In this document: piece after piece, positions 16,656 through 27,902 of the stretch | Layout: each line of letters starts with the position of its first letter | Position numbering within the stretch: the stretch's first letter is position 1 | Source of the DNA: a virus | Reading direction: 5' to 3' (one strand) | DNA: 27,926 bases | Virus record (IMG/VR): IMGVR_UViG_3300010885_025608 | Coordinates: 1 to 27,926 of that record | Translations under genes and position numbers: made by a program | The notes under the pieces: model-generated | What the model was told of the DNA's origin: nothing | Databases searched by the model: none | What the model saw: only the letters and a program-made list of their open reading frames with translations

Positions 16656-17108
16656 ATGAGTTTTTTAAAATTTAACGAATTCCTTGCTGAAGAGGAAAAG
16701 AAAAAGTCCATCCTTAAAACGGAGGATGAAATTCACGGGTCTAAAAAGAAAGATGCCAAGAATGAAGAAGACGAAGAAGATTCTGAAAAGAAAGATGATA
16801 AAGATTCTGAAAAGAAAGATGCTGATGTAACAATTCCAGCAGCTGACAAAACAATGGATCCTGAGCATCCTGAAAAAACTGATGCTAATAAGGCCGCTGC
16901 GGATAAAGCTGGTGATCTTGGTGTTTTATCTGGAGCTGAAAAGAAACGTGTTGATGGAAATGATATTGATGATGATAAGGATGATGAAGAATCAGTTGAT
17001 CCCAAAGATAAAGATAAGGGTAAAGTTACTGGAGACGATGAAGAAAATGACGATGAAACTGAAGACGGGGATGATGATAATACTAATGACGATACCTCAA
17101 CATTCTAA
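16656..17108 (+). CDS. Extremely acidic core/internal protein with CTS
   Basis: By hand count 55 of 150 residues are Asp or Glu and 26 are Lys or Arg; the sequence is low-complexity and almost certainly disordered. It starts MSFLKFNEFLAEEEKKK, a clear CTS with 'LAE' as the cut site. The D/E content rises towards the C-terminus (NDDETEDGDDDNTNDD). T4 has a comparable highly charged prohead core peptide precursor, gp67, whose fragments remain in the head as internal peptides; that is an analogy of composition and not homology. The gene starts one base after the previous stop. A role in balancing or organising packaged DNA, or in the assembly core, is plausible. Confidence 0.6.
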   Translation: MSFLKFNEFLAEEEKKKSILKTEDEIHGSKKKDAKNEEDEEDSEKKDDKDSEKKDADVTIPAADKTMDPEHPEKTDANKAAADKAGDLGVLSGAEKKRVDGNDIDDDKDDEESVDPKDKDKGKVTGDDEENDDETEDGDDDNTNDDTSTF

Positions 17109-17122
17109 AATAACATACTAAT

Positions 17123-17335
17123 ATGAAAACATTCGAAAACTTTTTACAAGAAAAAGAAAATAAACTTAACGAAGGGCAAGAATCATTAATAAGTCTTCTT
17201 TCCGACGAATCACCAGAAATTCAAAAATTGGCTTCTGAAATTGAAAAAATGCTTGAACCGCAGAGATACAAAATTGGGGTGGCTTATTATGATAAGGTTA
17301 TGCAAATTATTGCAGCAATGGTTAAACTTAAATAA
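17123..17335 (+). CDS. Small CTS-bearing protein, unknown
   Basis: Seventy residues start MKTFENFLQEKENKLNEG, with two candidate [L/I]-x-E sites ('LQE' at 8-10 and 'LNE' at 15-17). The part left after cutting is a roughly 53-residue helical protein (LISLLSDESPEIQKLASEIEKML, then YDKVMQIIAAMVKL). No Shine-Dalgarno sequence is present; the ATG is preceded by CATACTAAT. The small size and N-terminal signal recall the T4 internal proteins IPI-IPIII, which are packaged and injected. There is no further clue to function. Confidence 0.65.
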   Translation: MKTFENFLQEKENKLNEGQESLISLLSDESPEIQKLASEIEKMLEPQRYKIGVAYYDKVMQIIAAMVKLK

Positions 17336-17346
17336 AATACAATAAT

Positions 17347-17805
17347 ATGAAAAATATAAAAACATTTAAAGACTTTGTTTCTGAATCTGTTACGGCAAAA
17401 AAGCCTAATGATGTAGAAACTATTGACGTAGATCTTATTGGTGATGACAAAGATATCATGGATGCCATAAAGAAATTCAACATCACAGCTAAAGAAAATG
17501 GTGCCAACAATGGAATGGGCCATGATCTAACTGGAAAAAAGAAAGATCTTATTGCGTATCTTCAAAGTGAATACTATGAGATGGACGATGATGACATTAA
17601 AAGTTTATACCCTGAACTTCTTGAAGGTGATAATTTAGACGAAGCATCTGTGCAGATAGCTGGAAAATCTAAGCCTTCTGGTGCTAAAGTGCTAGCAATT
17701 GTTATCATGAAGTATTTGGAAGACAATCTCCTGATGCCAGCCAACGCAAATAAAAAAACTATTGAATCTGAGATTGCAGAGTTAATCATGGATTCTACAT
17801 TCTAA
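17347..17805 (+). CDS. CTS-bearing protein, unknown
   Basis: This 152-residue protein starts MKNIKTFKDFVSESVTAKK, a CTS with 'VSE' in the cleavage position. The middle (DDKDIMDAIKKFNITAKENG, then LTGKKKDLIAYLQSEYY) alternates helix and turn. 'LLEGDNLDEASVQ' around residue 95 resembles a second processing site (xLDEA), which would leave a C-terminal piece of about 50 residues. No enzyme motif is seen. It sits 11 bases after the previous gene and 13 bases before the next CTS gene, in what appears to be one operon. Confidence 0.62.
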   Translation: MKNIKTFKDFVSESVTAKKPNDVETIDVDLIGDDKDIMDAIKKFNITAKENGANNGMGHDLTGKKKDLIAYLQSEYYEMDDDDIKSLYPELLEGDNLDEASVQIAGKSKPSGAKVLAIVIMKYLEDNLLMPANANKKTIESEIAELIMDSTF

Positions 17806-17818
17806 AAAACATATTATT

Positions 17819-18367
17819 ATGAAACATATACCCACATTTGAAAGCTTCTTAAACGAAAGTAGCAATGAAGTAATCTTTAGCATTGACGATGACAAACTGG
17901 ATCAATTGCTAAACGCAAGATTCTCTCGTCAGCTGGATTACAAAGATGACAAAGGTGATTCACTCTATGTTCTTCCTAAAAGAGAATTTGATCGTTTTAT
18001 CGATCTTGCAGATTCTTCGGGATTTGATGTAGATTATGAAAATAGCGAAGACTCTGTTGTTTATGTACAAGAGTCTGTAGTTAATGAAGCTGCGTATGTA
18101 CCTTCTAATGTAATGGATTTTGCTAAAAAGAAAGGGTCTTACGCTGCTTCATTAGTTAGGAAAGCTGCTGGATGGGCAGAAAAGGCGGGTAGACGTATAT
18201 CAGGTGGAACAGCTATTGGAAAAAATTATAACACTATCATTTTAGATATGAAATATCAAGGAGCAGAAATTTATATCAGTCTTGATAAAGAGACTATTGA
18301 ATTATTCGGAGAAGAAGTAACCGACGCGAAATCATTCGCTCAAGTTTTATCAGCTAATCAAAAATAA
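17819..18367 (+). CDS. CTS-bearing protein with second processing-type site, unknown
   Basis: The product is 182 residues. MKHIPTFESFLNESSNE is a near-perfect CTS, with 'LNE' at 11-13. A second site-like stretch, 'QESVVNEAAY' (VVNE at 87-90), divides the protein into an acidic N-terminal part and a basic, mostly helical C-terminal part (FAKKKGSYAASLVRKAAGWA). The end has 'GTAIGKNYNTIILDMKYQGAEIYISL', which resembles the end of the next gene's product ('AKAIGKDEIEIEMDFETLSLKL'), so the two are probably paralogues. No known domain is recognised. A packaged, protease-trimmed head protein is inferred. Confidence 0.65.
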   Translation: MKHIPTFESFLNESSNEVIFSIDDDKLDQLLNARFSRQLDYKDDKGDSLYVLPKREFDRFIDLADSSGFDVDYENSEDSVVYVQESVVNEAAYVPSNVMDFAKKKGSYAASLVRKAAGWAEKAGRRISGGTAIGKNYNTIILDMKYQGAEIYISLDKETIELFGEEVTDAKSFAQVLSANQK

Positions 18368-18380
18368 AAACTGAAAAACT

Positions 18381-18770
18381 ATGAAACACATACATACATT
18401 TGAAAGCTTCATTAATGAGGCTGCCAATAAAATGGTAACAAAGCAAGACTGGGACAAGGCTGACAATGAACAACGCGAAAATTGGCTTTTGTCTGCTATT
18501 AAAGATCCTGATGACGTAGAAAAATTTGTTAATGCTAAATGGGATAAACTTCCTGACGTAGCTACATCAAATATGATGAAAGAATCTATCAATGAAGCTT
18601 CTGCTGCAGATGGCGCTGCTCTTATTAACAGTTTGGTAGCAGATATAAATGCTGCTGCACTTAGTGGTAAACTTAAAAAAATTCAATCTGCTAAAGCAAT
18701 TGGAAAAGATGAAATTGAAATAGAAATGGATTTTGAAACACTAAGTCTAAAACTTAAAGGTTGGCGTTAA
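18381..18770 (+). CDS. CTS-bearing protein, paralogue of its upstream neighbour
   Basis: The 129-residue product starts MKHIHTFESFINEAANK with 'INE' at 11-13, the classic CTS of this phage. A second copy of the site, 'MKESINEASA' (SINE at 69-72), precedes a C-terminal part of about 57 residues that holds the 'SAKAIGKDEIEIEMDFETLSL' segment shared with the upstream protein. The region between the sites (KQDWDKADNEQRENWLLSAI) is helical. The shared layout of CTS, spacer, second site and small beta-ending domain suggests duplication. No function is known. Confidence 0.65.
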   Translation: MKHIHTFESFINEAANKMVTKQDWDKADNEQRENWLLSAIKDPDDVEKFVNAKWDKLPDVATSNMMKESINEASAADGAALINSLVADINAAALSGKLKKIQSAKAIGKDEIEIEMDFETLSLKLKGWR

Positions 18771-18784
18771 AAAATATAAAGAAC

Positions 18785-20080
18785 ATGTCATTACTCAACT
18801 ACATAGATTTCTTAACTGAATCACACATAAAAGAATCCTTTAATGAAACACTTAACGAAGGCGGAGCCTATGGACATTTAAGTCATCCGTTTGAGGATTT
18901 TGGATTGACTATGGCGGATCTTCAGCAAATGATTAACACTACTGTTAATGGTGCATTTGGACCGGAGAATTTTGTGATGGAGAAGACAGATGGCCAAAAC
19001 ATAATGATTTCTTGGAAGAACGGTCATTTAATTGCTGCAAGAAACAAATCACATTTGAAAAATGCTGGTGAAAATGCTTTAGATTCTATTAGTATGGCTG
19101 CTATGTTTGCAGGACGTGGTGATATTGAAACTGCGTATAATGCTGCTATGAAAGACCTTACAGCTTCTATCAGTTCTCTATCGGATAAAGATAAACACAA
19201 ATTTTTTGATGAAGGAAAGAAATTTGCTTCGGTTGAAATAATTACACCCGTTACACAAAATACTGTTCCTTATGGTCAGAACATGTTAGTTTTTCACGGT
19301 GTTGTTGAACATGATGATTCCGGTTCCCCCATTGGTGAAGATAAACAAGCAGGCAGAGATTTAGGAAAAATGATAGCAGATGCTAATGCCGCGGCGCAAG
19401 AAACTTTCTTCGTTCGTGGGCCACAGGATATTGCATCAATTCCTTTTCCTGATACAAAGAAAAGATCCGTGTATTACCAAAAACGATTAGCTGATGTTAT
19501 GCGTGACAGTGGAACTAATCCAAGTTCAACTGTTGGTGATTATGCATTGGGTATGGGTAAAAGAATACTTCTTGAAGAAGCTAAATCGGCAAAAATTGAT
19601 TTGCCTGCTGAATCTTTAGACGGACTTGCTCGTAGACTTGCTGATATTGATAAATCATACACGGTTGGTCAAATTAAAAAGGATCTTGGAGAAAGCGCTA
19701 CATGGTTTATTGACATGGAGAAATCTCGTGCTAAAGAATTGAAGAGAAAGATATACGCTCCGCTTGAAGGGCTATTCCTTGAGGTAGGAACTGAAATGAT
19801 GAAGAACATGTCTGCGTTTCTTTCAGCAAATCCAACTGCGGCGGCCGTAACTATGAGAAAAGAAATAGATAGTGCAATTAATTCTATTCGTACAAACGGA
19901 GATATTAAAGATATCGAAAAACTTGAACATGAATTAAGTAGAGTAGCAGCCGCTGGTGGTTTAGAAAGTATCGTTCCTACTGAAGGAATTACATTTATCT
20001 TTAATGGCAAGCTCTACAAATACACAGGAATTTTTGCTCCTCTTCATCAAATAAGATCAATGATTGCTTATAAAAAATAA
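18785..20080 (+). CDS. CTS-bearing KxDG nucleotidyltransferase (DNA/RNA ligase superfamily)
   Basis: ATG 18785 gives 431 residues; an in-frame TTG at 18761 overlaps the previous gene and would bury the signal. The N-terminus MSLLNYIDFLTESHIKE is a CTS ('LTE' at 10-12), followed by 'FNETLNEGG' with another site at 23-25. The ligase-superfamily motifs follow: motif I 'MEKTDGQNI' with the candidate AMP-accepting Lys67, motif III-like 'KFASVEIITP' (Glu151), motif IV 'TEGITFIF' (Glu400-Gly401) and motif V 'KLYKYTG' (Lys412). About 230 residues separate motifs III and IV, longer than in compact RNA ligases. The family transfers AMP or GMP to nucleic acid ends through a lysine adduct. Whether this one seals RNA, seals DNA or does something else cannot be told. 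A head-packaged, injected ligase would be unusual. Confidence 0.72.
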   Translation: MSLLNYIDFLTESHIKESFNETLNEGGAYGHLSHPFEDFGLTMADLQQMINTTVNGAFGPENFVMEKTDGQNIMISWKNGHLIAARNKSHLKNAGENALDSISMAAMFAGRGDIETAYNAAMKDLTASISSLSDKDKHKFFDEGKKFASVEIITPVTQNTVPYGQNMLVFHGVVEHDDSGSPIGEDKQAGRDLGKMIADANAAAQETFFVRGPQDIASIPFPDTKKRSVYYQKRLADVMRDSGTNPSSTVGDYALGMGKRILLEEAKSAKIDLPAESLDGLARRLADIDKSYTVGQIKKDLGESATWFIDMEKSRAKELKRKIYAPLEGLFLEVGTEMMKNMSAFLSANPTAAAVTMRKEIDSAINSIRTNGDIKDIEKLEHELSRVAAAGGLESIVPTEGITFIFNGKLYKYTGIFAPLHQIRSMIAYKK

Positions 20081-20091
20081 AACAAACATAT

Positions 20092-20652
20092 ATGAAAACA
20101 TTTGACAACTTTAGAAAAAAAGATTCTGTGAATGAAGCGATTGACTTTACAGCAAAAGCTTCACAGCCAAATAAATTGACTCCTGAAGTTGAGAAAATTC
20201 TTAATGACAGATTAGGTGATGAATACACCGCGTATTACTTTTATAGAAACGCAGCAAACTGGTGTAAGAATGTTAATTACAAGAAAGCTGCCGGATTCTT
20301 TGAAGCTGAAGCTGCCGGTGAATTAACACACGCGCAAGGTCTTCAAGATTATTTAACCAATTGGAATATCTTGCCTGCTATCCCACAAGTACCAACTTCT
20401 CAAAATTTCGCTGGTCTTGTTGATTTAATTAATAAAGCTTATGATCTTGAGTATAATCTTTTGATGAAATACTCAGAAAACCAAAAGACTCTATCTACCG
20501 TAGATCCTGCAACATTTAATTTTGTACAGAAATATGTAGATATCCAAATTGGTGAAGTTTCTGAATACTCTGATTATCTTAATGCATTAGAATTAATTAA
20601 CACCGATAATAAACTTGATGTGTTATTCTTTGAAACTGAGTACTTTGGTTAA
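20092..20652 (+). CDS. Ferritin with CTS-like N-terminal extension
   Basis: The 186-residue protein matches E. coli FtnA along its length: 'LNDRLGDEYTAYYFYRNAANWC' against '[22 protein letters not shown]', 'GELTHAQGLQDYLT' against 'EEMTHMQRLFDYLT', and 'TFNFVQKYVDIQIGEV' against 'TFNFLQWYVSEQHEEE'. Ferroxidase ligands are kept: Glu44, Glu77, His80, Glu120, Gln152 and Glu155 correspond to FtnA Glu17, Glu50, His53, Glu94, Gln127 and Glu130, and Tyr51 to Tyr24. The FtnA third-iron (C) site is lost: Glu49, Glu126 and Glu129 become Gly76, Ile151 and Gly154. The N-terminus is about 27 residues longer than FtnA; MKTFDNFRKKDSVNEA begins like the CTS and ends in 'VNE', but with an insert between the halves. 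Ferritins oxidise and store iron in 24-subunit shells. Packaging is inferred. Confidence 0.88.
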   Translation: MKTFDNFRKKDSVNEAIDFTAKASQPNKLTPEVEKILNDRLGDEYTAYYFYRNAANWCKNVNYKKAAGFFEAEAAGELTHAQGLQDYLTNWNILPAIPQVPTSQNFAGLVDLINKAYDLEYNLLMKYSENQKTLSTVDPATFNFVQKYVDIQIGEVSEYSDYLNALELINTDNKLDVLFFETEYFG

Positions 20653-21000: not shown

Positions 21001-21347
21001 TAAATCTTAACTTAATTAATTTTGATCATTACAGAGATAACTATGATGATTTGCTGAATAACAAGGAAGATTACTTTATTTTTGTCCGAGGATTAACAGA
21101 GAAGAACTACAATCTTTTCAAGAATATAATCAATCCAAAAAGTTTAAAACGTGGATGGAAGAATAATCATGTTGATCATAAGTATAGTATTTCACAAGGG
21201 TTTAAGGACAAAATTAGTCCATTTTTAATCGCGCATCCATGTAATTTACAAATGTTAAAAGCAAAAGATAATAAAAAGAAAAACGCAAAATGCGATCATA
21301 CTGTTGAAGAACTGTGTGAGAAAGTAAATAATTTTGGTATTGTATGA
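20997..21347 (+). CDS. Putative HNH-like endonuclease, GTG start
   Basis: The 116-residue protein begins at GTG 20997, overlapping the previous TGA by three bases (GTGA); no suitable ATG is near. The segment 'HVDHKYSISQGFKDKISPFLIAHPCNLQMLKAKDNKKKNAKC' (about residues 59-100) matches the HNH-type pattern Asp-His, then Asn-Leu, then Asn-x3-Lys found in phage-encoded nucleases and homing endonucleases. The N-terminal part (FVRGLTEKNYNLFKNIINPKSLKRGWKNN) is basic and could bind DNA. It ends in an ATGA overlap with the next CTS gene. It may be a small mobile endonuclease that settled between packaged-protein genes, or a DNA-processing nuclease. It has no CTS. Confidence 0.55.
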   Translation: MINLNLINFDHYRDNYDDLLNNKEDYFIFVRGLTEKNYNLFKNIINPKSLKRGWKNNHVDHKYSISQGFKDKISPFLIAHPCNLQMLKAKDNKKKNAKCDHTVEELCEKVNNFGIV

Positions 21348-21382
21348 AACATATAAAACTATATGAAGATTTTATAAATGAA
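21344..21382 (+). repeat. CTS-coding 5' cassette, copy A
   Basis: The first 39 bases of this gene are identical to 21895-21933 at 36 positions, although the two proteins share nothing else obvious. Related versions open the genes at 17819, 18381 and 27561. This suggests that the targeting peptide spreads as a DNA module. Confidence 0.6.
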
Positions 21383-21898
21383 TTTGATATCACACCGGGG
21401 AAATGGATAGACATGGATCTTTCTAAACTATCTGACGATGATATGCAACTCATTTGGTCTATGTATGTTTCGACATATGCTAAGCAAGGAATGGATCTCT
21501 CTGCTGATGATTGGCAAGAAATGAAAACTAAGTATAAAGCAACAGCTATAAAGGATGTTGACTCCGATCATCAACCTGACGCGTTCATTATATACAAACC
21601 TACCAAATGGGGAAACAAAATTGCTCTTCTTGGTACTAATGATAAGAAACAAGCTAAGAGTGATTTAATAAAGAAACTCTTTGAATTACTAAATACTAAA
21701 GGATGGTTTATTGAAGCCAGCCTTAAAATGGAAGAAATTCTTTCAAACGCAAATGTTCCCGTTATTACTGACGAAGATATGATCTTTGACGTAGTTGGAG
21801 CAAACAAAAAACCTGAAATGGAAAAGGATGGTTATTATACCAGATTTCTATCAAAAGCAGGAAAACGAATTAGAAAAAGAATATACGGAAAGGTATGA
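21344..21898 (+). CDS. CTS-bearing protein, possibly GNAT-like
   Basis: The 184-residue protein starts MKHIKLYEDFINEFD, a full CTS with 'INE' at 11-13. The rest is a compact alpha/beta protein: 'LSDDDMQLIWSMYVSTYAKQGMDL', then 'PDAFIIYKPTKWGNKIALLGTNDKKQAKSDLIKKLFELL', then 'GWFIEASLKMEEIL' and 'VPVITDEDMIFDVVG'. The order of an early helix pair, central strands and a later 'FIEAS' strand reminds me of GNAT acyltransferase-like phage proteins, but the acetyl-CoA loop is not clear. The C-terminus is basic (KAGKRIRKRIYGK). It overlaps the upstream stop (ATGA) and the next start by four bases. The first 39 bases match the next gene's start at 36 of 39 positions. Confidence 0.6.
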   Translation: MKHIKLYEDFINEFDITPGKWIDMDLSKLSDDDMQLIWSMYVSTYAKQGMDLSADDWQEMKTKYKATAIKDVDSDHQPDAFIIYKPTKWGNKIALLGTNDKKQAKSDLIKKLFELLNTKGWFIEASLKMEEILSNANVPVITDEDMIFDVVGANKKPEMEKDGYYTRFLSKAGKRIRKRIYGKV

Positions 21899-21933
21899 AA
21901 CACATAAAACTATATGAACAGTTTATAAATGAA
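21895..21933 (+). repeat. CTS-coding 5' cassette, copy B
   Basis: This is the second copy of the 39-base cassette at 21344-21382. It differs at only three positions and codes for MKHIKLYEQFINE in place of MKHIKLYEDFINE. Confidence 0.6.
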
Positions 21934-22467
21934 GCTTCTAATGAAAAGGTCGTTCTCTTTCCTGGAAGATTTCAGCCAATGCATTTAGGACACATCAAAG
22001 CATTTGAGAAAGCATATAAACTTTTTGGTGTAAAAGTTGTTCCTATCTTAATTATATCTAAGAATGAAGAATCGCCCTTTCCACGTCCGCTACTTGAAAA
22101 GATTGCTAATGACGTTACCAAAGAATTTAGTTTTATTGCTGAGGTGATAGTTTATCCCGAAGGACTAAAAACTGTTATACCTCAAATGGTAAAACTAACT
22201 CGTGAAATGGGCTATGATCCTATTGGTGTTGCTTGTGGAGACGATCGTTTTAAAGATTATCAGAGACAAGTCAACTATTTATTATCTAATAAGTCTGATG
22301 TACCTACAAAAGAATTTCGAGTAGAGGTCGTTGATGAAAGAATACCCAACGGCCCAAGCGGAACAAAAACACGCGAAGCACTACGTTCTGATGAAAAGAG
22401 TTTTTCTGAAATGGTTCCTAAAAGTGTTCAAAAATACTTTTCAGAATTAAAAAAATATATTAAGTAA
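21895..22467 (+). CDS. CTS-bearing HxGH nucleotidyltransferase (NMNAT/cytidylyltransferase-like)
   Basis: In this 190-residue protein a full CTS, MKHIKLYEQFINEAS, is joined to a Rossmann-like nucleotidyltransferase. 'VVLFPGRFQPMHLGHIKAF' contains the HxGH motif (His30, His33) that binds the nucleotide triphosphate. 'GPSGTKTREAL' (Ser155-Arg160) is the second, ISSTxxR-type motif. Strand order and length fit the family that includes NMN adenylyltransferase (NadM/NadR) and cytidylyltransferases. The substrate cannot be read from the motifs. If CTS cleavage occurs after Glu13, the mature enzyme begins just before the first strand, so the domain would stay intact. The start overlaps the previous stop by four bases and the TAA overlaps the next ATG. 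Confidence 0.82.
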   Translation: MKHIKLYEQFINEASNEKVVLFPGRFQPMHLGHIKAFEKAYKLFGVKVVPILIISKNEESPFPRPLLEKIANDVTKEFSFIAEVIVYPEGLKTVIPQMVKLTREMGYDPIGVACGDDRFKDYQRQVNYLLSNKSDVPTKEFRVEVVDERIPNGPSGTKTREALRSDEKSFSEMVPKSVQKYFSELKKYIK

Positions 22468-23273
22468 TGAAGCATTATGTTAAAACATTTGAAGGGTTCA
22501 TAATAGAAGATATGGAAATTCTCAAGATGCGTGATGTTATTCCTTTAAGTAAGATTAACAAGAAAGCCGCACAAGCAGCAATGGGCAATGGAGAAAACGA
22601 TGGAGAAAGACGCGATGATTCTGTTAGTGGAAAAAAAGTTAGTATTGCTGTTAAAAATTTAGAAGCTGCGCAGACGGAGATTATTCCTGAGAAGGCTATT
22701 GGTATGGCTATTGGGACAATGCTAAATACTAAACCTACAAAAATAGGTGGTGATTTAGGATCAATTGTTTCTAAAGATAATTACATTATGGACGGTCATC
22801 ATCGTTGGGCAGCTACCTTTTTATGTGACCCTAATGCTAAAGTTGAAGCAACGCAAATTGACTTACCCGGAAAATCATTGGTAACTGCACTAAATACAAT
22901 TACTGTTGGTATGTTTGACCGAGGTGGTAATTACGGTGAAGGTGACATTCAAGATTTCACTGGTAAGAACATTGGTAAACTTTTAGATAATTGTATTCTT
23001 AATGGAATTCAAGGGAAGTTTCCAATTACGCCCGAACAAGTTAAAGAAAGTTTAGGAAATGTCCCGGGCGCTAACGGAGATTATGAAAAGGGGAAAAGTA
23101 TCATGATGAAAAACGCTGATTCTCTACCAAAGAAAATTATGCCAGGTGCACCACCGCGAGTAGAGATGCCAGTGATTGGTCCTGGTGAAGTTGAAAAAGT
23201 TAAAAAACTTTTAGCTGATGGAGATATTGATTTGACAAATCCCTACAGCGATATTGTAAATAAAGAACTATAA
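22467..23273 (+). CDS. CTS-bearing ParB/sulfiredoxin-fold protein
   Basis: The 268-residue protein starts MKHYVKTFEGFIIEDME, a CTS with 'IIE' at 12-14. 'GGDLGSIVSKDNYIMDGHHRWAATFL' (about 94-119) is the ParB/Srx signature, with Asp109-Gly110-His111-His112-Arg113. It is followed by 'KVEATQIDLPGKSLVTAL' as the next strand and helix. Members of this fold use ATP or CTP or act as nucleases (ParB CTPase, sulfiredoxin, phage ParB-like nucleases). The C-terminal third (MPGAPPRVEMPVIGPGEVEK) is Pro-rich and may be a flexible arm. It starts in a TAATG overlap after the HxGH enzyme and is followed after one base by the Pol-beta-type gene, so the three are probably translated together. Confidence 0.65.
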   Translation: MKHYVKTFEGFIIEDMEILKMRDVIPLSKINKKAAQAAMGNGENDGERRDDSVSGKKVSIAVKNLEAAQTEIIPEKAIGMAIGTMLNTKPTKIGGDLGSIVSKDNYIMDGHHRWAATFLCDPNAKVEATQIDLPGKSLVTALNTITVGMFDRGGNYGEGDIQDFTGKNIGKLLDNCILNGIQGKFPITPEQVKESLGNVPGANGDYEKGKSIMMKNADSLPKKIMPGAPPRVEMPVIGPGEVEKVKKLLADGDIDLTNPYSDIVNKEL

Positions 23274-23274
23274 T

Positions 23275-24198
23275 ATGAAACAATACGTTAAACTATTTGA
23301 ACAATTTATTTCTGACGTGAGTGAAGGCGGGAATGCTGTTAAGGAAGCAAGACCGATGTCACAAAAAGAAGTATCTGATGTTTATGAATATGTCAAGTCA
23401 AAAGTATTTCCACTTTTGGGACTAGATGGTAATGATGTTGATGCCGCGCCAATCGGATCGTTTGGTAAAAAGGCAGCTGATGCAACAAGTGGTGATCTCG
23501 ATATTGCTGTTTCTGTAGATAAAATTGCAAGTGTTAATTCATTGCCAATTAATCCAGATGCTGTTTTAGAATATATGGATGTTGTCTTGAGTAAGGCGGG
23601 TTTTTCTACAACAGTAAGTAGTGGGTTTAAACAAATTTCTATTGGTGTCGTTATTCCTGGAACAAAAGAAATCGCACAAGTCGATCTTATGTTATCAACA
23701 AGTCTTGAATGGTCTAAGTTTATGTACTATTCTCCAGACTTTACAAAATCTGAATCTAAATACAAAGGTGCATATAGAAATCTGTTAGTAATGGCTATCA
23801 TTAATTACTCTAAACGCGAAGCTGCTAAACTTACTGACAAAGGAGAAGTAGAAGAGATTAACACATACGTTCTTCAACTTGACCGTGGTGTTCAAGAAGT
23901 TCGTAAATCATTTATGGGTAAGAAAGGTGCTATCATTAAAACAACTGAAACATTACATGATTATGATAAATTTATATCTAACACACCTGATGTCGTTGTT
24001 AAACTTGCATTTGGTGATAATGTTAAAGTAAGTGATGTAATGACATTTGAAGGTTGCTGGAGTTTAACAAATTCTAGTGCTTTTCCACATAAAGATAAAT
24101 TGCCCGAAATTCTTAAAGCATTCAAAGGATACCTAATGGGTGCTAAATTACCAATGCCAACGGAGGCAGCGGAAACATACCCTAACATTTTTGGGTAA
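23275..24198 (+). CDS. CTS-bearing Pol-beta-type nucleotidyltransferase
   Basis: The 307-residue protein starts MKQYVKLFEQFISDVSEGG, a CTS with 'ISD' or 'VSE' as cut site. The Pol-beta superfamily active site is visible: 'PIGSFGKKAADATSGDLDIAVSV' contains the helix-capping Gly61-Ser62 and the metal-binding pair Asp74/Asp76, and 'EIAQVDLMLS' gives the third carboxylate, Asp137. This fold adds nucleotides to tRNA, RNA, proteins or small molecules (CCA-adding enzymes, MNT toxins, kanamycin NTases, OAS/cGAS-like enzymes). The C-terminal half is helical ('YNLLVMAIINY'-type segment 'YRNLLVMAIINYSKREAAKL') and could be the substrate domain. The exact subfamily is not recognised. No antitoxin-like partner is apparent beside it. 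Confidence 0.75.
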   Translation: MKQYVKLFEQFISDVSEGGNAVKEARPMSQKEVSDVYEYVKSKVFPLLGLDGNDVDAAPIGSFGKKAADATSGDLDIAVSVDKIASVNSLPINPDAVLEYMDVVLSKAGFSTTVSSGFKQISIGVVIPGTKEIAQVDLMLSTSLEWSKFMYYSPDFTKSESKYKGAYRNLLVMAIINYSKREAAKLTDKGEVEEINTYVLQLDRGVQEVRKSFMGKKGAIIKTTETLHDYDKFISNTPDVVVKLAFGDNVKVSDVMTFEGCWSLTNSSAFPHKDKLPEILKAFKGYLMGAKLPMPTEAAETYPNIFG

Positions 24199-24224: not shown

Positions 24225-26018
24225 ATGGCTGGAATTAATACGATAGTAGAATTTTACAAAAAACACGGAGAAGATAAACTTAAAACTTTATTAACTTCTG
24301 ATTTGCGAATAACTGAAAAGTACGATGCTCATAGGTTTTCTTTTGAGAAAACGGAAAAAGGGTTTGTCTTTTTTGGTAAAAATGGTAGTTCGGCTCTATC
24401 ACATGTAGACAGAACTATTAACAATTTATATGAATCTGCTATACAGCACATTGAGAATCTACCCCGTGAAATAAAATCACAAATTCCAAGAGGGCAAAGA
24501 TTTGGCTTTTCATTCTTTCCTAATAACAAGCCGTTAAAAATTGAATATCAAAAAGTCCCTAAAAATCATTTAGTTTTAACTGACTTGACTATTCGCAAGG
24601 GTGATAAAATATCTGAAAGTATTGTTAATCATGAAGTTTTAAAACGTTGGTCAACAGTTCTCAATACAGAATGTGATAAACCACTATTTGAAGGTCGACT
24701 TGATGAACATACTCTTGATGCATTATTAGAAAGTATTAAACAAGAAGATAACATAACACAGTTATTTGAAAATGATAACACTAATATGTTCCTACGTACC
24801 AACGATCTTACAATGGAAGGTATTGTATTCCAATGTTCTACTGACCGTGGTAATCTTTTACTTAAATATGAAGATTCGCAATACATAACAGAATCTGTGT
24901 CTAAAGGGCGTGATCATATGTTTGATATCTTGTTAATGAATATCTTTGGTTTTGTTGAATCTTATAAGTTACCCAGGATCATTGATGAGAGTAGAACTGA
25001 TGATAGATATATTTCTATTATCTGCGAAATGTTTAATTCTTATGTTAAGAAATACGGTGATGATTTTTTATCTATGAACCTAAAGAAACCTGCATTCTTA
25101 GAGAAATCAGGATCGTTTGTACATGAATGGATTAAAGACAAGAAAACGATTACGATATTAAAGGAAAATAAAAATTATGAATATCTACTATCTATCTTTT
25201 TAACTAATCTCAAAAAGGAAAAGAAAACAGGGGGATTACTAACAGAATCATTAGTTAATAACTTTAACAAGATTGTAGTAGAAATTGATGAGTTATCACG
25301 CGGAACATCTGATGATTATGCTCATTTGGAATTCTCTCCACTTACTGAAACTGAAACTTACTTTTTAAGTTCTGTTAAAGATATTAAAGAAGATATTATC
25401 GAAACGCCTGAAGTTAATGACGCGGAAAATATTCGGGCTATCTCATTAATGCAAAAAGTTTTTTCCAAAGAACCAAGTACTACTAAACTTGGTAAAGAGG
25501 AAGTAAATGTTTTATTAGGAAACTATACATTATTTACTGACAAAGATTTTTCAGCCGCCGAATCACTTCATAAGAAGAATGGTAAACGTGTGATTATAGT
25601 CCATGTATCTCAAGATAAAAAGAGCGGAGATAAATTTGCATTTGAAAATATTAAAGTTAAAAAGATGTTATCAAAACTTGTTGAGGAAAATGAAGACGTA
25701 TTTACAAGTTGCGATATTATAAATGCACCTCTAATATCTCAAGTTTATCAAGGGTTACGTCCTAAATACGAACCAATACTAATTGCTGTAAATGGTTCAA
25801 CTGGTTCTCTGGAAATAGAATATGCTTCAAGAAAATGGCTGAGTACGCAATATTCTGATAATCTAAGTTTTCTATCTTATTCATCGGGAATTGATGCCGT
25901 TTATAAAACATTGGAGACAGGTTCTGTTGCCGACTTTTCTAAGCTTGTCCCTGACATCATATCCAAGTATTTTATGGAATACCAATCGGAGTATAGAAAG
26001 TTTATCTATGTATCTTAG
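24225..26018 (+). CDS. RNA-ligase-like protein fused to a degenerate HxGH nucleotidyltransferase domain
   Basis: The protein has 597 residues. The N-terminal domain has ligase-superfamily motifs: motif I 'ITEKYDAHRFSF' (Lys32, K-Y-D-A in place of K-x-D-G), motif III-like 'RFGFSFFP' with 'PLKIEYQ', motif IV 'MEGIVFQ' (Glu198-Gly199) and motif V 'NLLLKYED' (Lys214). Residues from about 428 resemble the HxGH enzyme at 21895. 'VLLGNYTLFTDKDFSAAESLHKKNG' lines up with 'VLFPGRFQPMHLGHIKAFEKAYKLFG', with T-D-K-D replacing H-L-G-H. The end, 'SSGIDAVYKTLETGSVADFSKLVPDIISKYF', lines up with 'PSGTKTREALRSDEKSFSEMVPKSVQKYF', with the motif Arg lost. So the C-terminal domain is probably inactive. No clear CTS is present (MAGINTIVEFYKKHGED). 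It has its own promoter motif and terminator. Confidence 0.72.
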   Translation: MAGINTIVEFYKKHGEDKLKTLLTSDLRITEKYDAHRFSFEKTEKGFVFFGKNGSSALSHVDRTINNLYESAIQHIENLPREIKSQIPRGQRFGFSFFPNNKPLKIEYQKVPKNHLVLTDLTIRKGDKISESIVNHEVLKRWSTVLNTECDKPLFEGRLDEHTLDALLESIKQEDNITQLFENDNTNMFLRTNDLTMEGIVFQCSTDRGNLLLKYEDSQYITESVSKGRDHMFDILLMNIFGFVESYKLPRIIDESRTDDRYISIICEMFNSYVKKYGDDFLSMNLKKPAFLEKSGSFVHEWIKDKKTITILKENKNYEYLLSIFLTNLKKEKKTGGLLTESLVNNFNKIVVEIDELSRGTSDDYAHLEFSPLTETETYFLSSVKDIKEDIIETPEVNDAENIRAISLMQKVFSKEPSTTKLGKEEVNVLLGNYTLFTDKDFSAAESLHKKNGKRVIIVHVSQDKKSGDKFAFENIKVKKMLSKLVEENEDVFTSCDIINAPLISQVYQGLRPKYEPILIAVNGSTGSLEIEYASRKWLSTQYSDNLSFLSYSSGIDAVYKTLETGSVADFSKLVPDIISKYFMEYQSEYRKFIYVS

Positions 26019-26117: not shown

Positions 26118-26465
26118 ATGCAAGAAAAACTAATACAAACTTTTGATGAATTTATCACAGAAGGTCATATTGTGTTTAAGCGCAAATACACCGATGCACA
26201 TCCTGAAAAGAAGGTTGGTGCAACTGGACCAATACGCGAGAAAATATTATCTTTCTTACACGAAAAAGGTACTGTAAATAAAACAGAAATGATGGAATTT
26301 ATTTCTGGGTTAAACGAAGAAACGGGTGGTAAGACATCGCGTAAGTGGTTAAACAAAAATTCACATCTTGTAATAGTTACCGAAAAGGACGGGACAAAAT
26401 TTTATACGCTCTCAAAGACAGGTCAAAGAATACATTCTAAAATAGTAAACGGAGCTAATGCCTAA
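26118..26465 (+). CDS. CTS-bearing winged-helix protein
   Basis: This 115-residue protein has its CTS slightly shifted: MQEKLIQTFDEFITEGH, with 'ITE' at 13-15. Residues about 38-110 look like a winged helix: helix 'IREKILSFLHEKG', helix 'NKTEMMEFISGLNEE', recognition-helix candidate 'TSRKWLNKNSHLV', and a wing 'IVTEKDGTKFYTLSKTGQRIH'. Winged helices usually bind DNA, so a packaged one might be a transcription factor delivered with the genome or a DNA-coating protein. It is the first gene after the terminator and promoter motif. It overlaps the next gene by eight bases. Confidence 0.68.
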   Translation: MQEKLIQTFDEFITEGHIVFKRKYTDAHPEKKVGATGPIREKILSFLHEKGTVNKTEMMEFISGLNEETGGKTSRKWLNKNSHLVIVTEKDGTKFYTLSKTGQRIHSKIVNGANA

Positions 26466-27560: not shown

Positions 27561-27902
27561 ATGAAACATATACAAACATTTGAATCATTCTTAAATGAGA
27601 ACTTGAACGAAGCCATTATCAGTCCAATGCAAATGGAAATGAAAGGCAAAACTCTAATCTCTAAAATATCAATTGGTGCTAAGTTTGAAGGTGAATTAGA
27701 TCACAAACCTGAAACTCTTACTGTTGTTGGTTATGGTGATCGTTCAAACGCTTTTAGGATTTTTGAGGTCGAGACTTCAGGCGGAACAAAAACTTACTTA
27801 AAGGTGACTGTTATGTATGGATGCAGTTACAGAGTATTGGACAACCCTCGTGGAAACTGGGATGGTGCTAAAGGGTTTGATCTTAAAACGATTACAATAT
27901 AA
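27561..27902 (+). CDS. CTS-bearing small beta-rich protein
   Basis: In this 113-residue protein, MKHIQTFESFLNENLNEAI contains a full CTS with two cut sites in tandem, 'LNE' at 11-13 and 'LNE' at 15-17. After it comes a beta-rich, single-domain protein (TLISKISIGAKFEGEL, TLTVVGYGDRSNAFRIFEVE, GTKTYLKVTVMYGCSYRVL). No catalytic motif is recognised. It begins after a terminator-free 8-base gap and is preceded by AAACAT. Similar in size to T4 internal proteins, it is predicted to be packaged and trimmed. Confidence 0.65.
   Translation: MKHIQTFESFLNENLNEAIISPMQMEMKGKTLISKISIGAKFEGELDHKPETLTVVGYGDRSNAFRIFEVETSGGTKTYLKVTVMYGCSYRVLDNPRGNWDGAKGFDLKTITI

Follow-up and report, generated by a model that had tools for sequence, protein, structure and literature searches.

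The subject of this analysis is a gene in a 27,926-nt stretch of viral DNA (positions 1-27,926 of the IMG/VR record IMGVR_UViG_3300010885_025608), referred to below as the window and labeled WIN in our comparisons, in which other viral records or groups carry L numbers such as L240 or L428. The gene occupies positions 24225-26018 on the plus strand, as do its domains and motifs and the genes at 18788, 21895, 22467, 23275 and 26118 described below, and encodes a 597-residue protein in which a ligase-like region is fused to a nucleotidyltransferase (NTase) domain; its open reading frame (ORF), the family alignment, an AlphaFold2 model and Foldseek searches identify it as a putative double pseudoenzyme. 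A degenerate region resembling T4 Rnl2 extends over approximately residues 1-365 (24225-25319), as indicated by a weak PF09414 match and by Foldseek, and is followed by a pseudo-NTase domain with the Rossmann fold of the HIGH superfamily (residues 425-597; 25497-26015, then the stop codon), recognized by profile, AlphaFold2 and Foldseek. The protein begins with MAGINTIVEFYKK, without the capsid-targeting-like leader seen at the N-terminus of several neighbors, and its gene family belongs to very large bacterial viruses. The original prediction, made from the sequence of the window, had correctly placed the ORF and its C-terminal domain, and described the protein as a ligase fused to a catalytically dead copy of the NTase encoded at 21895 in the same window.

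Used as the sole query, the protein retrieved no relatives from the viral collection, and alignments were required. Residues 425-597 have no matches in Pfam or PHROGs, and PF09414 (Pfam RNA_ligase) matches residues 28-215 with an E value of 9.5e-4, which is below cut-off. When 34 intact fused NTase domains were combined into a profile, it matched the window domain with an E value of 2.5e-16, and the identity of the domain is secure because relatives support it, namely this intact-family profile and the intact ortholog from LR756500 described below. The AlphaFold2 model, built with 42 relatives, predicts an alternating beta-alpha, Rossmann-type domain at residues 425-597, with mean predicted local distance difference test (pLDDT) values mostly of 80-96, falling to about 60 in short loops. 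In Foldseek comparisons with PDB, the N-terminal half had T4 Rnl2 as its top match (2hvr, E 2.5e-7), which bears out the ligase-like N-terminus and assigns it the nucleotidyltransferase fold of the ligase superfamily, while the C-terminal half matched nicotinate mononucleotide (NaMN) and phosphopantetheine (PPAT) adenylyltransferases (5vir, E 6.6e-4, target-normalized template modeling score (TM) 0.63; 4nah, target TM 0.66); together with the profile, these matches point to a HIGH Rossmann-like fold, and not to a non-Rossmann one. The best match in a viral structure library, UniProt A0A6J5NWC5 (623 residues), aligned end to end with the window model (E 2.4e-41), and homology within the family runs over the full length of the single ORF containing ligase and NTase. 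A weak match to PF04919/DUF655 and matches to arginine deiminases were set aside as chance.

Alignment with the family reveals the loss of catalytic motifs in both halves. Ligase motif I (24315-24329) reads E-K-Y-D-A against a family consensus of E-K-M-D-G, so that the lysine (Lys32) is retained and the glycine is gone, and the motif III region (24501-24518) reads F-G-F-S-F-F against F-G-L-E-Y-F, with serine in place of glutamate; the window protein therefore lacks the K-x-x-G of motif I (KYDA) and the acidic residue of motif III (FGFSFF) expected of an active Rnl2 enzyme. In residues 425-597, the HxGH position (25536-25547) is now T-D-K-D, and the ISxTxxR position (25881-25904) is S-S-G-I-D-A-V-Y, with the arginine gone, leaving neither the (H/T)xGH nor the ISxTxxR motif of active HIGH NTases. 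The first of these segments is GNYTLFTDKD in the window fused domain versus GRFQPMHLGH in the 21895 protein, and the closing segment, SSG..L..FSKLVPDIISKYF, aligns with SGT..L..FSEMVPKSVQKYF. The change of HLGH to TDKD, the loss of the motif arginine and the likeness of the closing segments had all been described accurately, and the pseudoenzyme proposal holds for the NTase half, where loss of catalysis is indicated by sequence; what had been overlooked is that the ligase half is degenerate too (KYDA, Glu to Ser). Judging by motifs and folds, both halves of the 24225 protein lack catalytic residues and both have kept their fold.

The ligase half nevertheless still has the motif I lysine (Lys32), motif IV (EGIVF) and the motif V lysine. 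With these residues and the weak PF09414 match, the N-terminal half could still have adenylyltransferase or ligase activity in a rewired pocket, catalytic loss being confined to the NTase half, and deviant Rnl2 pockets are known (PMC4599027). We consider this unlikely in view of the motif I glycine to alanine and motif III glutamate to serine replacements, of the sister proteins L428 and L430, which have KAEA in motif I and have lost motif IV as well, and of a separate KTDG ligase-like gene in the same window.

Two scans of IMG/VR yielded 53 homolog groups at an 85% identity cut. Both halves are intact in about 30 groups, whose members carry EKMDGSAF (motif I), FGLEYF (III), EGIVF (IV) and AKMVDP (V), followed by GRFQPFHxGH and SGTxVR, and the ligase half of L008 scores above the Pfam PF09414 cut-off. 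The ligase half is degenerate and the NTase intact in 18 groups, the reverse applies to 8, and in 12 groups both are degenerate or the NTase is absent; in these counts L055 was recounted as intact by eye, and the 8 include L131-L136, which keep HPGH and are of uncertain status. The ortholog encoded by the uncultured huge phage LR756500 (462 kb) has 653 residues and starts with MAGI like the window protein; its C-terminal domain is intact (GRFQPFTLGH...SASVVR), and the 21895 protein aligns with that domain over 185 residues. The best PDB sequence matches of the family NTase are nicotinamide mononucleotide (NMN) adenylyltransferases, and cellular genomes gave NTase matches only, mostly archaeal NMN-adenylyltransferase-like, with no fused protein among the matches listed. 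From these sequence comparisons, the ligase-NTase fusion is ancient and older than the pseudo-domain. One viral gene family thus presents a bifunctional enzyme losing either or both active sites in different lineages, a ready-made series in which the retention of pseudoenzymes by viruses could be tested. The clade of L131-L136 and L146, in which the ligase half is intact and the NTase half is strongly altered (SDFQPxHPGH, Arg motif gone), is another candidate for a retained pseudo-NTase; those L131-L136 pairs that are free of saturation show ratios of nonsynonymous to synonymous substitution (dN/dS) of 0.01-0.16, and are highly constrained.

The age of the fusion bears on the origin of the dead domain, which the original prediction derived from the neighboring NTase by duplication, fusion to a ligase and inactivation. 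The two NTases of the window do have a common fold and the closing FS..VP....KYF segment, but the fusion is present in dozens of other phage lineages, mostly with both sites intact, and the window domain is matched by the fused-family profile and not by a profile of the standalone family (E 0.14), which comprises three sequences only. Direct comparison of the two is too weak to decide, with BLASTP aligning 24 residues only (E 0.003 for one comparison) and local alignment giving z 2.8 and p 0.017 against shuffles. In the approximately unbiased (AU) test, a tree with the two window NTases as sisters was rejected (p-AU 0.0018), so the fusion was not made from the neighboring gene in this genome; recent local duplication of 21895 is rejected by the same test, and the scenario is hardly credible. 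A topology uniting the standalone clade with the pseudo-domains in a single old clade was not rejected (p 0.12-0.18), and a far older shared origin of the two is possible. Because of its long branch, the window can be positioned only tentatively in the ligase tree.

The standalone NTase gene (21895-22467) encodes a protein with the leader MKHIKLYEQFINE, a PF01467 match (E 3e-7) and all motifs intact, including the GRFQPMHLGH and SGTKTR characteristic of the HIGH superfamily. It falls into phrog_3041/395, annotated as 'cytidyltransferase', and is matched by the intact fused NTase profile with an E value of 7e-33. NTases of this type were found in twelve related contigs, in most cases with the leader, and the ten sampled in a tree form one clade (support 100/100). 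In all eight standalone-NTase records with a readable fused C-terminus, the fused NTase is either dead (the window, L428 and L430) or deleted (L240, L416, L417, L418 and L419). None of 20 records whose fused NTase is intact showed the standalone gene, which is suggestive only, many records being fragments. The eight NTase losses do not represent one event, because L240 and L418 nest in a clade with intact NTases, and a single clade of NTase-less and window-type ligases was rejected (p-AU 1.1e-5). In L240 the excision is clean, as seen from its SPIDES|NLLTFSQFL junction compared with SPITEA-[NTase]-TNES|EFLTFEKF in L248.

The second ligase-like gene, with a KTDG motif, lies at 18788-20080 (its ORF is listed from a TTG at 18761) and was identified by alignment, motifs and Foldseek; it, too, had been overlooked earlier. 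Its motifs are invariant in 30 relatives, and RNA ligases come first, albeit weakly (E 1e-3), in Foldseek comparison of its model with PDB; in hhalign, its family and the fused ligase are collinear at motifs I and III, without reaching significance. Genes of the KTDG ligase type occur in the vicinity of 18 of the 30 groups whose fused ligase is degenerate, but of none of the 38 in which it is intact, and four core contigs (349-482 kb) with both halves intact lack them.

The full-length proteins closest to that of the window are L428 (557 residues) and L430 (559 residues), with 33% identity to it, and in the ligase tree the window protein has as its sister L415, a truncated copy of L428 (100/99). 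The C-terminal domain of L428 and L430 can be aligned with that of the window (z 10.8 against shuffles) and is even more degenerate, with MNLGEVTNKV versus GNYTLFTDKD. Between L428 and L430, the 170 codons of the pseudo-NTase differ at synonymous and nonsynonymous sites in proportions (pS and pN) of 0.70 and 0.14, respectively, which corresponds to a dN/dS of about 0.08, and the ligase half yields a dN/dS of 0.03. On each of the two contigs, the KTDG ligase is accompanied by an intact leader-bearing NTase 53% identical to the 21895 protein, and in both, as in the window, a pol-beta-type gene lies directly upstream of the fused gene. The combination of lost catalytic residues, retained fold and purifying selection, the latter estimated from these sisters, is that of a conserved pseudoenzyme.

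These data bear on two further explanations. The fused protein could be a vestige on its way out once its functions had moved elsewhere, the window copy representing a late stage before NTase deletion; this would agree with the clean NTase deletion in L240 and L418, its absence from L416, L417 and L419, and the much faster divergence of the fused gene in comparison with its neighbors. A mere relic, however, would hardly be expected to maintain open frames of 557-597 codons, a well-formed predicted fold, a dN/dS of about 0.08 in the dead domain of the sisters, and NTase-less ligase-like proteins in several records of the clade, and we view this explanation as rather improbable, the simple form of it being disfavored by the dN/dS of the sister pair. 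Alternatively, the altered HxGH pocket might have gained another catalytic activity, in agreement with the constraint on the domain in L428 and L430; the residues replacing the motif differ, however, being TDKD in the window and TNKV in the sisters, and this lack of conservation speaks against a shared new active site at that position, making new chemistry very improbable.

We therefore return to the double pseudoenzyme. The ancestor of the 24225 protein would have been a bifunctional phage enzyme, consisting of an Rnl2-type RNA-ligase-like domain followed by an NMN adenylyltransferase (NMNAT)-like HxGH domain. Both activities would now reside in separate, intact-looking genes, the KTDG ligase-like gene (18788-20080) and the leader-bearing NTase gene (21895-22467), which presumably encode active enzymes that have assumed the original roles, while the fused protein would have lost the catalytic residues of both halves, its two folds apparently being held by purifying selection. 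Such a protein would have a non-catalytic function; most likely it would bind to its neighbors or act as a scaffold for them, or else bind RNA ends or nucleotides, within an RNA-repair-like cluster which also appears to hold a pol-beta-type NTase. Domain identity, motif losses, the ancient fusion, the presence of separate genes wherever the fused NTase of the clade is dead or deleted, and constraint in the sisters are all read from sequence, and on these grounds 24225 is probably a conserved double pseudoenzyme in an enzyme cluster, with both activities matched by separate genes and with a non-catalytic role. In this clade, then, the shape would have been kept after both activities appeared in separate genes.

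Several observations weigh against this interpretation. Many of the compared records are fragments; about ten groups with a degenerate ligase have no nearby KTDG ligase; and the apparent ligase exchange is an association rather than a repeated test, as it essentially involves one or two clades. Constraint was measured between L428 and L430 and not for the window gene, and their pS is near saturation, so that dN/dS is approximate, although nonsynonymous change is plainly restrained. The fused gene is only 25% identical to the ligase-like protein of L240, as opposed to 48-66% for its neighbors (the KTDG ligase, standalone NTase and pol-beta genes), and relaxed constraint would also give such identity. 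Finally, weak adenylylation by the window protein is still conceivable, given the surviving nucleophilic lysine and motifs IV and V. More tentatively, the double pseudoenzyme might be a dedicated non-catalytic subunit that joins the ligase, the HxGH NTase and the pol-beta NTase in one complex, perhaps for the repair of RNA or NAD, the leader-bearing enzymes of which would travel in the virion and enter with the DNA.

The pol-beta-type NTase-like gene (23275-24198), recognized by motif (GS...GDLDIAV) and alignment, carries a leader and lies directly upstream of the fused gene, which it also adjoins in most relatives with both halves intact. It is preceded by a leader-bearing gene with a DGHHRW motif (22467-23273), ParB/Srx-like by motif only, which matches phrog_2859 of unknown function (E 1.8e-9) and has relatives in L239, L236 and L237. 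A small gene with a leader-like N-terminus (26118-26465) is conserved downstream of the fused gene, with homologs in that position in L240 and several relatives. The same gene cluster includes a ferritin-like protein (20092-20652; PF00210, E 2.3e-20) with a leader-like start.

Leaders of the form M-K-x(3-6)-F/Y-E-x-F-I/L-x-E, exemplified by that of the 21895 protein, start 11 of the 33 window genes and have no internal matches; the genes concerned (21895, 22467, 23275 and eight others) are located at 16656-18770, 21344-24198, 26118-26465 and 27561-27902. T4 internal proteins with a capsid targeting sequence are packaged and injected (PMC3012670), and larger relatives of the window encode a T4-type prohead protease. 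The resemblance of the leaders to T4 capsid-targeting sequences suggests that many proteins, enzymes among them, are packaged and injected; the likeness to T4 internal proteins is known here from sequence, and the 24225 protein differs from them in having no leader. In L240, L241-L258 and L416-L419, most ligase-like proteins have C-terminal tails such as NES-FLTFEKFIKNI or AES-LMTFEQFVKKD that share the TFExF core of the N-terminal leaders, and these tails could possibly serve in capsid targeting.

Comparison with known systems shows that the N-terminal half shares its fold and the order of motifs I, III, IV and V with the T4 Rnl2 family (PF09414/phrog_548), from which the window copy differs by the missing motif I glycine and motif III glutamate, and to which the NTase fusion is foreign. 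The C-terminal domain has the Rossmann fold of NMN adenylyltransferases (archaeal NadM, NadM-Nudix 2qjo) and other PF01467 NTases, and the intact relatives and the 21895 protein have the GRFQPxHxGH and SxTxxR motifs as well; this family, likened to the NMN adenylyltransferases by sequence only, is fused to a ligase, its window copy lacks all catalytic motifs, and the phage NTases form a clade separate from archaeal NadM. The closest named phage families are those of 'cytidyltransferases' (phrog_3041/phrog_395, phrog_27149 and A0A6J5NWC5), which are named for the NTase domain alone, their ligase half and its decay not being described in the literature searched. Searches of an open-access library turned up no paper about this ligase-NTase fusion, about DUF6267 or about the name given to the cyanophage gene. 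Phage RNA ligases are known to occur with pol-beta NTases in RNA repair, and HIGH-type NMN adenylyltransferases, separately, in NAD synthesis (PMC7824862, PMC9503650), and the available parts of these two papers do not mention a ligase-NTase fusion. The jumbo phage RNA-repair clusters with an RNA ligase and the pol-beta NTase RlaP (PMC7824862) resemble the window in having a ligase-like gene beside a pol-beta-type NTase, the window gene being likened by its pol-beta motif; a HIGH-type NTase partner and a pseudoenzyme are not mentioned in the portion of that source available.

Ligase-like and HIGH-type NTase genes are also adjacent in Stenotrophomonas and Xanthomonas phages and in cyanophage S-H9-2, and such recurrent linkage supports a functional link between them, as far as gene order and motifs can tell. 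The fused, in either order, adjacent or dispersed genes would represent an undescribed phage module coupling RNA-ligase-like and NMNAT-like enzymes, with a possible part in countering host defenses through repair of RNA or NAD. In S-H9-2 (L238:2769-3998), a protein of the Pfam family DUF6267, whose function is listed as unknown, carries a KWDG motif and is encoded directly before an HxGH NTase gene, and DUF6267 may be ligase-like. Fusions in the opposite order, independent of that in the window, form single ORFs of about 800-1470 residues with a GRFQPFHxGH NTase followed by a KTDG ligase (L345:3589-7227, L404:983-5383 and about 25 other loci), some of them with an N-terminal P-loop kinase domain. 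Yet another fusion, combining a different ligase-like domain (HKTDG) with an NTase, is encoded at L259:3924-5450 and corresponds to phrog_27149, which is listed as being of unknown function.
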